Below are positions 4,182-40,899 of a stretch of 64,000 bases of DNA, piece by piece. Each line of letters begins with the position of its first letter. Position 1 is the stretch's first letter. Location: assembly GCF_002196705.1 (NCBI RefSeq), contig NZ_NADJ01000039.1, forward strand, positions 493,631 to 557,630, read 5' to 3'. The translations under genes and the position numbers were made by a program. This DNA is from Desulfosporosinus sp. FKB. Its GTDB lineage: Bacteria > Bacillota > Desulfitobacteriia > Desulfitobacteriales > Desulfitobacteriaceae. A model generated the notes under the pieces. The model was not told the origin of the DNA, made no database searches, and saw only the letters and a list, made by a program, of their open reading frames with translations.

Positions 4182-5066
4182 TTATTTTTCATGGAGAAAA
4201 TGCTCCATCACAAATTCTTTGAAACGCTTGGCGGCAGGTGAAAGGTATCGTCCCTCGACCCAGGCCATTCCTATGACCCTCTGGCATAGAGGTGCTGACA
4301 CATGGACTTGGGATAGTCCGCTCATATCAAAGGCCTTGACCTTGGGAATAAGGGCAATCCCAAGTTTTGCCGCCACTAATCCCATAATCGTTCCAATCTC
4401 TTCACCCTCAAAAGTTACCTTGGGGGTAATTCCTGCTTCTCGAAAAAGCCGATCAGTGATCTCGCCTAAAGATAATTCTTTTTTATAAGCAATGAAGGGC
4501 TCTTCCGACAACTCTGCGAGTTTTACCGTCTTTCGTTGGGCTAGAGGATGTTCACGAGGGACAATTAGAATAATCTCTTCGGTGAACAGCTGAATCCAAT
4601 GGACATTTTCATGGGCCAAAGGCTGGGAACAAAAACAGAAATCAATATCCCCGGTCTCTAATTGATCTATGACTTGATTTGTTAAATTTTGATAAAGCAT
4701 GAAGCGAATACCCGGAAAATTTTTGTGAAAGGTGCCTAATAAATCCGGAACAAGATTTGAACCCTGAGAATGAATGAATCCCAAAGAAACGCTGCCTTGG
4801 GAAGGATCAATCAAATCCTGAATTTCTTGCTGTCCTAAAGTAACTTCCTGAATCGCGCGGTTCACTCGATTAAGAAAGATTCTGCCATAGCCATTTAGAA
4901 CTACTGTGCGTCCCTGTCGTTCAAACAAGGGAACACCCAGTTCTTCTTCAAGTCTGGCAATCGAGCGACTCAGCGCCGGCTGGGAAATATTCAAGGTTTC
5001 TGCGGCTTTCGTAAAGTGCTGCAGTTGAGCTACAACTTGAAAGTATTGAAATTGTGTCCATTCCAT
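4182..5066 (-). CDS. LysR family transcriptional regulator
   Basis: The 294-residue protein has the LysR winged HTH at the N-terminus (FTKAAETLNISQPALSRSIA, about residues 18-37, then LEEELGVPLFERQGRTVVL) and a periplasmic-binding-protein-like effector domain. It is divergent from an MFS transporter, with a 145-bp shared intergenic region, the standard LysR-target arrangement, so it probably controls that gene. The arrangement recalls E. coli YnfL/YnfM. The inducer cannot be told from sequence. Confidence 0.88.
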   Translation of the reverse strand: MEWTQFQYFQVVAQLQHFTKAAETLNISQPALSRSIARLEEELGVPLFERQGRTVVLNGYGRIFLNRVNRAIQEVTLGQQEIQDLIDPSQGSVSLGFIHSQGSNLVPDLLGTFHKNFPGIRFMLYQNLTNQVIDQLETGDIDFCFCSQPLAHENVHWIQLFTEEIILIVPREHPLAQRKTVKLAELSEEPFIAYKKELSLGEITDRLFREAGITPKVTFEGEEIGTIMGLVAAKLGIALIPKVKAFDMSGLSQVHVSAPLCQRVIGMAWVEGRYLSPAAKRFKEFVMEHFLHEK

Positions 5067-5211
5067 GAAAATTGCCTCTCCGAAATCATCTAAATTACTG
5101 TCTTATTATTCATTACTGATAGTTATTAATTTAATGCAAATTATAAATTAGACGTAATAAGGTGTCAAGGTGTAGGATAAGTAAGCGAAATAATTATTGG
5201 AGTGAACTTTC

Positions 5212-10305: not shown

Positions 10306-10409
10306 AGTGAACTCGTTCAGCTAAAGGATGGACTCTACCCCCACCGAAGCTAGGTATGGGGGCCACTCCCACTTGAAGACAGGAAGCGGGAATCTTACGA
10401 TTGGATAAA
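10306..10409 (+). repeat. Dispersed structured repeat, copy C (internally deleted, subfamily 1)
   Basis: AGTGAACTCGTTCAGCTAAAG is joined directly to GATGGACTCTACCCCCACC, losing the second hairpin and the long-range helix; CTAAAG/CTGAAG microhomology marks the joint. It keeps ACCCCCACC/GGTATGGGGG pairing and the tail CTTACGATTGGATAAA, with a small insertion in the last hairpin. It lies in the gap 10184-10726, which otherwise holds the promoter at 10498-10525. Confidence 0.75.
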
Positions 10410-13518: not shown

Positions 13519-13703
13519 AGTGAACTCGTTCAGCTAAAGCTGAACATCGGGACTTCAGATACAATAATGTCCAGTGGACATTATTGCCGAGCCGCCTTTC
13601 CCAATAGGAATACTTAGCGGCGAAGGAGGACTCTACCCCACCTGAAGTTAACGAAGGAACCACCCCCACTTACAAGAAGTGGGGATCTTAAAAACTGGAT
13701 AAA
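13519..13703 (+). repeat. Dispersed structured repeat, copy D (full length, subfamily 2)
   Basis: Same left end and GTTCAGC-TAAA-GCTGAAC hairpin as copy A, but the second hairpin is AATAATGTCC-AGT-GGACATTATT, the long-range helix is GCCGC/GCGGC, and the terminal hairpin is CCCCACTT/AAGTGGGG with tail CTTAAAAACTGGATAAA. Three base pairs of helix 2 and two of helix 3 differ from copy A by compensatory change. Confidence 0.85.
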
Positions 13704-27570: not shown

Positions 27571-27963
27571 ATGAAAAAAATAGCAACGTTTATTCTTCTT
27601 TTTCTTCTTGTAGTTGGATTAACCGCCTGTAATTCAAAAACGCCATCGGACACTTCTCAAAATACGGTTACTTATACAAAAGAATTTTCGTATCTTCCGG
27701 CTTACAATAATATGCAATACCAGAGTTTAACCCAAACCGACCAAAGTCAAACTGCTAGGTACCTAATTAAAAATACAATCGTCGATAAAGTTTTAAAGGA
27801 CTATGGGGATATCCTCAAAAATGACGGCTGGACTCTAAGCTGGAGTTATACGAAAGATAAAAAGCCCGCAAGCCTCGTTGCCCAGAAAGACAATCATACC
27901 ATCGCCTTGCTGCCGCGGCAAAGCAATAAAGACGTTTTATTGATGATCTCGGGTCCGAAGTAA
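27571..27963 (+). CDS. Small lipoprotein of unknown function
   Basis: 130 residues with a lipoprotein signal peptide: KK, a hydrophobic core (IATFILLFLLVVGL) and the lipobox LTAC with Cys 20. The mature part is polar, with alternating strands (TKEFSYLPAYNNMQYQSL; TLSWSYTKDKKPASLVAQKD). No family is recognised. GGGGTGA precedes the ATG. Copy E of the dispersed repeat begins at the very next base after the stop codon. Confidence 0.7.
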   Translation: MKKIATFILLFLLVVGLTACNSKTPSDTSQNTVTYTKEFSYLPAYNNMQYQSLTQTDQSQTARYLIKNTIVDKVLKDYGDILKNDGWTLSWSYTKDKKPASLVAQKDNHTIALLPRQSNKDVLLMISGPK

Positions 27964-28146
27964 AGTGAACTCGTTCAGCTAAAGCTGAACATCGGGGCTT
28001 CAGATACAATAATGTCCAGTGGACATTATTGCCGAGCCGCCTTTCCCAATAGAAATACTTAGCGGCGAAGGAGGACTCTACCCCGCCTGAAGTTAACGAA
28101 GGACCACCTCCACTTATAGAAGTGGGAGTCTTAAAAATTGGATCAA
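27964..28146 (+). repeat. Dispersed structured repeat, copy E (full length, subfamily 2)
   Basis: Nearly identical to copy D: hairpin 2 AATAATGTCC-AGT-GGACATTATT, helix 3 GCCGC/GCGGC, terminal hairpin with CCACTT/AAGTGG, tail CTTAAAAATTGGATCAA. Its first base follows directly on the TAA of the lipoprotein gene. Confidence 0.85.
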
Positions 28147-28147
28147 G

Positions 28148-28182
28148 CATGCCCTCGACAAAGCATCTTTGCCGAGGGCATG
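28148..28182. terminator. Strong bidirectional hairpin before nfo
   Basis: CATGCCCTCG-A-CAAAG and CTTTG-C-CGAGGGCATG form a 16-pair stem with one mismatch. It lies between the converging lipoprotein and endonuclease IV genes. Confidence 0.75.
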
Positions 28183-32396: not shown

Positions 32397-32497
32397 CGTG
32401 AACTCTTCAGCTAAAGCTGAACATCGGTGCTTCGGTGACGAAGCAAGGTATTGGAACCACTCCTACTTGTGGAAATGGGAGTCTTACGATTGGACAA
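32397..32497 (+). repeat. Dispersed structured repeat, copy F (internally deleted, subfamily 1)
   Basis: Left end GTGAACTCTTCAGCTAAAGCTGAAC, then GCTTCGGTGACGAAGC joined to AAGGTATTGGAAC by a deletion at a shared CGAAG, then ACTCC/GGGAGT and the tail CTTACGATTGGACAAA. It lies between converging genes. Confidence 0.75.
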
Positions 32498-32532
32498 AGC
32501 TATGTAAAAAGCTTTATCTGTTTAAGTTCAAT

Positions 32533-36974: not shown

Positions 36975-36994
36975 AGTGAACTCGTTCAGCTGCA
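36975..36994 (+). repeat. Dispersed repeat, copy G (left end only)
   Basis: AGTGAACTCGTTCAGCTGCA matches the conserved left end and then diverges. It lies between yojF and bshB2; a right-end-only copy (H) lies just after bshB2. Confidence 0.6.
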
Positions 36995-37039
36995 GCGAAA
37001 ACTCTTTTAATTAGTCAATTAACGTGGGAGGAGTATTCT

Positions 37040-37712: not shown

Positions 37713-37723
37713 CTGTAGATTGC

Positions 37724-37806
37724 AGTGAAGGAGGACTCTACCCCACCTGAAGTTAACGAAGGACCCACCCCCACTTATAGAAGTGGGGGTCTTAAAAACC
37801 GGATAA
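37724..37806 (+). repeat. Dispersed structured repeat, copy H (right half, subfamily 2)
   Basis: From AGTGAAGGAGGACTCTACCC through CACCTGAAGTTAACGAAGGA to a perfect terminal hairpin CCCCCACTT-ATAG-AAGTGGGGG and tail CTTAAAAACCGGATAAA. The left half is missing. Confidence 0.8.
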
Positions 37807-37840
37807 AAAACTTACCTTGAGAGGAGACCCTGCCGCATTT

Positions 37841-40491: not shown

Positions 40492-40767
40492 ATGAGTATT
40501 TTTGAAATTATTATGTTAGTTTGTTTTGGTGCTGCCTGGCCCCTGTCAATCTATAAATCCTACACTTCCCGATCCACCAAAGGTAAAAGCGCTTCGTTTC
40601 TAGTCGTCATCTTAATCGGTTATGCTGCCGGAATTATGCATAAAATTTTTCATCAATATGATGGAGTTGTGTATTTATACTTGCTTAACTTTCTGATGGT
40701 CTTGACAGACCTTCTTATTTACCTACGAAATAGTCGTTTAGCCGCTAAAACCTTAGAAATGCCCTAG
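40492..40767 (+). CDS. PQ-loop/SemiSWEET-like small membrane protein
   Basis: 91 residues with three hydrophobic segments. The first carries CFGAAWPLSIYKSYTSRSTK, the proline-loop followed by S-x-x-x-K-G-x-S typical of PQ-loop half-transporters (SemiSWEET and relatives), which dimerise to move small solutes. Substrate unknown. The ATG follows AAGGTGA. The TAG stop is built in part from the first bases of repeat copy I. Confidence 0.65.
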   Translation: MSIFEIIMLVCFGAAWPLSIYKSYTSRSTKGKSASFLVVILIGYAAGIMHKIFHQYDGVVYLYLLNFLMVLTDLLIYLRNSRLAAKTLEMP

Positions 40768-40899
40768 TGAACTCGTTCAGCTAAAGCTGAACAGCCCATA
40801 ACAAATTCTATCGCGCTGAAGGATGGACTCTACCCCCGCCGAAGCAAGGTATGAGAACAACCCCTACTTGTAGAAGTGGGAGTCTGCCGATCGGATCAG
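40766..40899 (+). repeat. Dispersed structured repeat, copy I (partial deletion, subfamily 1)
   Basis: Left end and first hairpin are intact (AGTGAACTCGTTCAGC, GCTGAAC). Hairpin 2 and the left arm of helix 3 are missing; it resumes at AGCCCATAACAAATTCTATC as in copy A and ends CTGCCGATCGGATCA. Its AG belongs to the stop codon of the PQ-loop gene. Confidence 0.8.

Follow-up and report, generated by a model that had tools for sequence, protein, structure and literature searches.

The dispersed repeat found at positions 13519–13703 of the 64-kb window (the whole stretch of 64,000 nucleotides of Desulfosporosinus sp. FKB DNA analysed here) is very probably a palindrome-associated transposable element (PATE), a gene-less and non-autonomous element of the IS200/IS605 kind, presumably moved in trans by a Y1 transposase. 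We place it in the PATE class because it has sharp ends and subterminal hairpins, lacks inverted terminal repeats, does not duplicate its target and carries no gene. An earlier note on this DNA had remarked that the anatomy recalls IS200/IS605 elements, and this is now supported by empty insertion sites as well as by terminal sequences common to IscB–Y1 elements. The family also contains an inner module, a separable hairpin passenger that entered hairpin loops, and it is this which sets it apart from the published PATEs we found.

In the mechanism we propose, both subterminal hairpins would be recognised in single-stranded DNA by a Y1 (HUH) transposase supplied in trans. The strand excised would be the one complementary to the orientation presented here (TTTAT^CC...GAGTTCAC^T), and it would then be inserted 3' of TTTAT without duplication of the target. 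Both the transposition of single-stranded DNA and the identity of the transposase are what we infer here. Any selection on the structure would then act in the mobile source lineage, as opposed to the individual landing sites.

Copies of the repeat within the window

A family profile search of the window identified three full copies, five partial copies and one sub-threshold stub, all on the plus strand, with the three near-full-length matches (13519–13703, 27964–28146 and 1798–1978) having E-values of 1e-52 or better. Two of the full copies are D-type (13519–13703, and 27964–28147 with the right end GGATCAA) and the third is A-type (1798–1980, right end CGATAAA). Three of the partial copies are internally deleted (40766–40897, right end GGATCAG; 10306–10409, right end GGATAAA; and 32397–32498, right end GGACAAA, with the profile match starting at 32398), one is a right half with no left end (37719–37807, right end GGATAAA), and one has lost its core but kept both ends (2677–2737, right end GGATCAA, with the profile match covering 2691–2737). 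The stub (36975–36998; E 0.065) is a left end with no clear right end. The dispersed repeat of nine full or partial copies described earlier is therefore borne out, with eight above the profile threshold. The ends said to be common to all nine hold in part, as the left end AGTGAACTCG begins seven of them (the copy at 32397 reads CGTGAACTC) and the right end is exactly GGATAAA in only three (13519, 10306 and 37719).

None of the nine copies overlaps any of the 56 likely-gene ORFs which together make up 81% of the window. These were hand-picked out of 70 ORFs of at least 100 amino acids, and of the 14 mostly overlapping ORFs left out, one (27815–28150, minus strand) overlaps the copy at 27964.

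The full D-type copy at 13519–13703 illustrates the anatomy of the family. Judged by the empty sites of sister copies, A13519 and the ATAAA at 13699–13703 (TTTAT on the presumed transposase strand) would belong to the target sequence, and the element proper would cover about 13520–13698. Hairpin 1 lies at the left end (13528–13545; GTTCAGC TAAA GCTGAAC) and is followed by a central stem (13553–13647) in which CTTCAG at 13553–13558 pairs with CTGAAG at 13642–13647. This stem surrounds the inner module (13561–13627, with borders inferred from comparison with short forms), within which are found hairpin 2 (13562–13586) and helix 3 (13591–13595 with 13617–13621). The right-end hairpin (CCCCACTT ... 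AAGTGGGG) is located at 13664–13684.

Repeat ends and target sites

The elements are about 110–190 nt in length, contain no gene, and are too short to encode a transposase. As AGTGAACTCG and GGATAAA are not reverse complements, there are no inverted terminal repeats, and the two subterminal hairpins (hairpin 1 and the right-end hairpin) are paired in 93–97% of cells. The ends of the full copies are sharp, with no common sequence in the flanks on either side, and of 53 full copies (one duplicate row having been removed from an initial 54), 37 have ATAAA at the right end and 45 fit the looser ATNAA.

We joined the flanks of ten copies without the element and sought these sequences in six relatives. 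Four of the ten sites (loci L021, L022, L023 and L025) were found to be empty in relative G008. In two of them (L022 and L023) the empty site consists of exactly the left flank, A, ATAAA and the right flank, in L021 there is TTAAA where ATAAA was expected, and L025 is empty in both G008 and G009 with a target too altered to read. The flanks of five further sites, including those of the copies at 13519 and 1798, were matched only in part. We note that the remaining site, L060, is occupied in G008 too, where a D-type copy is found on the opposite strand (L275, 1300–1560). The empty sites indicate insertion at A^ATAAA, which on the other strand corresponds to a position immediately 3' of TTTAT, and show that the target is neither lost nor duplicated. 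Such an insertion habit is well established for IS200/IS605 elements, and is also described in PMC7290912.

Structure and covariation between subfamilies

A single copy folds much more stably than its shuffles, with z-scores of −6.5 as plus-strand RNA and −6.3 as minus-strand DNA. Across 22 sequences (both subfamilies plus relatives) and 45 pairs, 92.0% of cells were paired compared to 36–44% for slid partners, a control that is biased in favour of the structure as this was derived from the same 22 sequences. Both sides had changed in 15 of the 45 pairs, and the covariation score of 0.260 (0.142 in shuffles) was reached by none of 500 shuffles, confirming the earlier claim that the hairpins covary between subfamilies. 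The number of further pair types in these 22 sequences was not in excess, with 449 of 500 shuffles reaching the observed number. Two-sided variation was seen in two pairs of helix 3 and in six pairs of hairpin 2, and the latter has nine distinct arms which each have a perfect partner (five of the nine occur once). The compensated changes noted previously between copies A and D/E, three pairs in hairpin 2 and two in helix 3, were also found to be correct.

Decay of resident copies within subfamilies

In the host genome, 40 of 219 candidates were scored for the D-type query and 40 of 266 for the A-type query, with 78 of these 80 main places taken with 400-base flanks and the other two being the query copies in the window. 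Divergence from the consensus in subfamily A (37 copies) was 5.6% at paired and 6.5% at unpaired positions (p 0.14), and in subfamily D (40 copies) it was 2.15% and 2.95%, respectively (p 0.04), with the stems slightly spared. One-sided changes, counted after the pairs had been placed by their sequence, outnumbered compensated changes by 123 to 6 in A (1258 cells) and by 63 to 0 in D (1486 cells), while an alternative count based on a predicted fold with doubtful pairs gave 10 compensated out of 13 double changes in A and none out of two in D.

Resident copies are thus drifting under very little constraint, their stems being spared slightly at most. As the stems decay within each subfamily almost as fast as the loops, the copies are not being maintained as RNA genes where they reside, and the earlier suggestion that the folded form is selected is not supported for resident copies acting as RNA. 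Covariation without conservation in place would not be predicted for copies that each worked as an RNA gene. It would be predicted if folding (as hairpins in single-stranded DNA) is important for transposition, or if template switching repairs the palindromes. We consider that the covariation mostly belongs to the sources of successive waves, and selection in a source lineage fits both the covariation between subfamilies and the near-neutral decay within them.

Template-switch repair could also account for the compensated changes by perfecting imperfect palindromes, with no selection for structure involved. We think this unlikely, though in its favour the pairs flip from A-U to U-A and from G-C to C-G with few wobble intermediates, perfect arms occur within otherwise altered modules, and some modules are inverted relative to the ends. 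However, the compensated pairs are seldom seen in resident copies (the six in A and none in D counted above), which suggests that correction in place is infrequent, although it may act on source copies. Covariation between subfamilies together with near-neutral decay within them offers a simple test by which a mobile repeat can be told from a non-coding RNA. The PATE reading would also explain a class of strongly structured and covarying intergenic repeats that could be mistaken for new non-coding RNAs.

Comparison with known RNA families

The comparison with Rfam proposed in the earlier note did not place the repeat in any family, as no match was found over the window at the gathering threshold, and HEARO (RF02033) did not match the full copy at E-values up to 10. 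As a positive control, HEARO from the same library matched nine of 14 IscB loci of relatives. Six Rfam matches were seen around the copy at E-values up to 10, all far under their gathering scores, and the only one on the repeat itself, Fibrobacter-1 (E 1.3, minus strand), was taken to be due to chance.

These results also bear on whether the copies might be guide (omega) RNAs of IscB or TnpB, in which case the left flank would be the guide and ATAAA the target-adjacent motif. The geometry is suitable, since the element lies between the would-be guide and ATAAA, and the IscB–HEARO elements of the genus have the same terminal GTGAACT and ATAAA. However, the copy has no Rfam or HEARO match where most of the IscB loci do match HEARO, no IscB was found in the host genome, and the stems of the copies decay nearly as fast as the loops, so that we regard a guide-RNA function as extremely improbable.

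The inner module and its nesting

The inner module consists of hairpin 2 and helix 3 and is about 67–69 nt in length. It is absent from the shortest relatives (about 110–120 nt), which have only the left hairpin, central stem and right hairpin, and compared to these short forms, the full copies of the window carry the module within the central stem, where it interrupts GTG^GG or GAT^GG and some two Gs have been lost. The anatomy given in the earlier reading of this one window stands, but a separable module could not have been recognised there.

Amongst the loci examined we found 130 module matches, with 88 on the same strand as the left end, 12 inverted, and 30 with no clear left end within 260 bases, nearly all of which appear by eye to be decayed or variant copies of the repeat. 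Nested arrays of modules with no recognisable PATE ends were also observed (L187, about 5019–5138, and L204, 158–228; Desulfosporosinus sp. BRH_c37). In a further four loci, one from the host (L059) and three from relatives (L109, L113 and L132), everything enclosed by the arms of the central stem is inverted relative to the ends.

Two loci (L195 and L212) have two facing modules which occupy mirror slots of one central stem. The most elaborate arrangement is found in D. nitroreducens (L235, minus strand from 5400), where a series of seven left arms leads into seven closers, forming an unusually long nested palindrome. The outermost pair, TGGCATAAGTCT and AGACTTATGCC, matches at 10 of 10 positions, compared to six to eight when set against other partners, and three inner closers have one extra base each and match at only five of 10 positions in an ungapped count. 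Each of the inner copies is located at a hairpin tip, TCC(A/G)GT^, with the GG lost. We read this layered nesting as the probable outcome of stepwise insertion.

Two explanations of the nesting need to be considered. The first is that it results from template switching at hairpin tips, with micro-homologies (GGTG and GGA) at the borders, and does not involve a second mobile element; here we find the arguments evenly balanced. All six nested junctions in L235 lack the GG at the loop and follow GGT or AGT, and nearly all module matches, judged by eye, lie in repeat or decayed copies, with L187 and L204 the only arrays in which no ends were seen. On the other hand, the single precise junction rule, the occupation of the two symmetric slots in one central stem (L195 and L212) and the seven ordered layers all look more like targeted insertion. 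The second, which we advance more tentatively, is that the module may be a second-tier mobile unit that enters hairpin loops at GT^GG, first in one or other of the two mirror slots of the central stem and then at the tip of its own hairpin 2, growing in this way as nested palindromes. If this were true, we would be dealing with a transposable hairpin that nests within itself, the conserved loop TCCNGTGGA acting as its own target. The nested modules provide a natural and ordered record of long palindromes being built up and tolerated in bacterial chromosomes.

Search for the mobilising enzyme

Two Y1 genes were found in the host genome, and both encode proteins closest to the REP-associated tyrosine transposases (RAYTs) but just under the family cut-off (NF047646; 75.3 and 74.3 bits compared to 80). 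No element or module was found within 1.5 kb of either gene. The host also has nine TnpB matches, fragments among them, and searches for the repeat ends around these loci (extended by 1.5 kb on each side unless the contig ended sooner) produced only matches with E-values of 0.1 and above. A TnpB or TnpA gene with the same ends elsewhere in the host, which the earlier note had envisaged, was not found at these nine TnpB and two Y1 loci.

REP/BIME repeats with their RAYT transposases are dispersed intergenic hairpins served by a Y1 enzyme, and the repeat described here is alike in both respects. It might then be a REP/BIME-like sequence moved by the resident REP-type transposases, and in addition to the affinities of the two host proteins, Y1 frames of similar size are found in many relatives. 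We nevertheless judge this to be very unlikely, as neither host protein reaches the RAYT cut-off, no copy was found within 1.5 kb of either gene, and no copies were found in two relatives (G003 and G006) with a Y1 frame of that size (judged by size only). Furthermore, the possession of two different ends and a TTTAT target is characteristic of IS200/IS605 elements and distinguishes the repeat from REP/BIME sequences, and neither of the two host genes was found to be flanked by the repeat.

For the PATE that we propose, a more suitable source of transposase is suggested by the IscB elements of the genus. The IscB-type RRXRR domain is present in seven of 45 genomes of the family, and two Desulfosporosinus IscB–HEARO–Y1 elements (L119 and L121) align in two pieces, the outer limits of which are exactly GTGAACTACC and TTATAAA, the terminal sequences of the repeat, and have the same CTAAAG tip to the left hairpin. 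The Y1 gene of L119 is truncated and that of L121 has no normal start. A third IscB–Y1 element (L127), the left of which is cut off by the end of the contig, retains a Y1 frame of full length and terminates in TTATAAA, and proteins from L222, which is on the same contig as L121, match the IscB and IS200/IS605 transposase families. The terminal sequences are common to the repeat and these elements, but the hairpin sequences differ. The Y1 enzyme of these IscB elements, as kept at full length in L127, is therefore our leading candidate for the transposase that would move the repeat in trans.

At 30 Y1 loci of the family (out of many more Y1 places listed) and at 22 Y1 loci in six further genomes, we found no transposase enclosed by matching hairpins, and none between repeat ends among the 97 listed loci with the exact left end, the ORFs of which were screened using profiles built from proteins of this analysis. 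A complete copy in L132 is beside a Y1 gene and not around it, and likewise the Y1 gene pieces in L253 and L256 and the IscB–Y1 element in L222 lie beside repeat ends and not between them. No full-length TnpA of IS200/IS605 size was found in G024 or in some copy-rich metagenome-assembled genomes (MAGs), which are possibly incomplete.

Orientation was not significantly linked to replication in either of two relatives. In G001, with dnaA at 503.6 kb and the terminus assumed to be opposite, 24 of 59 copies were on the expected side (p 0.19). The right arm had 23 copies in plus and 15 in minus orientation, and the left arm nine and 12, respectively. In G009, 12 of the 18 copies listed (out of 71) were on the expected side (p 0.24).

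Relationship to other elements

The closest published parallel is provided by the PATEs of Haloquadratum walsbyi which, as described in PMC3119063, have ends that resemble IS605-type transposons in a host where the IS200-type transposases are nearly all disrupted. Both groups lack inverted terminal repeats, have palindromes near their ends, do not duplicate the target, are too short for a transposase and include core-deleted versions, and they differ in that our repeat has a bacterial host, an ATAAA target and a covarying central stem. Small SMR-A repeats are described as inserting into the Haloquadratum PATEs (PMC3119063), and the present family differs from what is described there in having an inner module that occupies hairpin loops, among them its own. 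A single PATE-like sequence from Halanaerobium hydrogeniformans, described as an ends-only IS605 derivative, is alike in being so reduced and unlike in being present as one copy with a tnpB remnant (PMC7290912).

Amongst Desulfosporosinus sequences, the IscB–HEARO–Y1 elements resemble the repeat in their terminal GTGAACT...ATAAA (apart from the missing left end of L127) and, in L119 and L121, in the CTAAAG-tipped left hairpin. In contrast to the repeat, these elements are about 1.8–2 kb and carry iscB and a Y1 gene, and L119 and L121 include a HEARO RNA that the repeat does not match. A literature search of mostly non-subscription journals, in which some matches were represented by the start of the abstract, found no report of such repeats in Desulfosporosinus, and nothing on point about nested hairpin repeats among the matches listed.

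Distribution amongst genomes

We searched the host genome (5.12 Mb in 40 contigs) and found at least 163 left ends with no more than three mismatches to a 27-base pattern, compared to none for the reversed control pattern, which excludes a chance origin. The full repeat was matched in 36 of the 45 genomes of the host's family, including the host itself, and no match was found among the plasmid and phage sequences searched, nor was the exact left end found in the viral contigs searched. At least 97 stretches of named genomes carry the exact left end, many of them Desulfosporosinus, and the matches listed also include Desulfotruncus arcticus, Acididesulfobacillus acetoxydans and Tepidibacillus decaturensis, as well as MAGs labelled Halothermothrix, Dethiobacter, Clostridiales, Candidatus Hydrogenedentes and unclassified Bacillota. 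The contig binned as Candidatus Hydrogenedentes (L247) reflects either transfer or mis-binning. Finally, one 2.2 Mb Bacillota MAG, SKS1.bin35, in which only a Y1 remnant was found, has many near-identical short forms of about 118 nt (L162, L168, L182 and others) that look to be the product of a recent burst.
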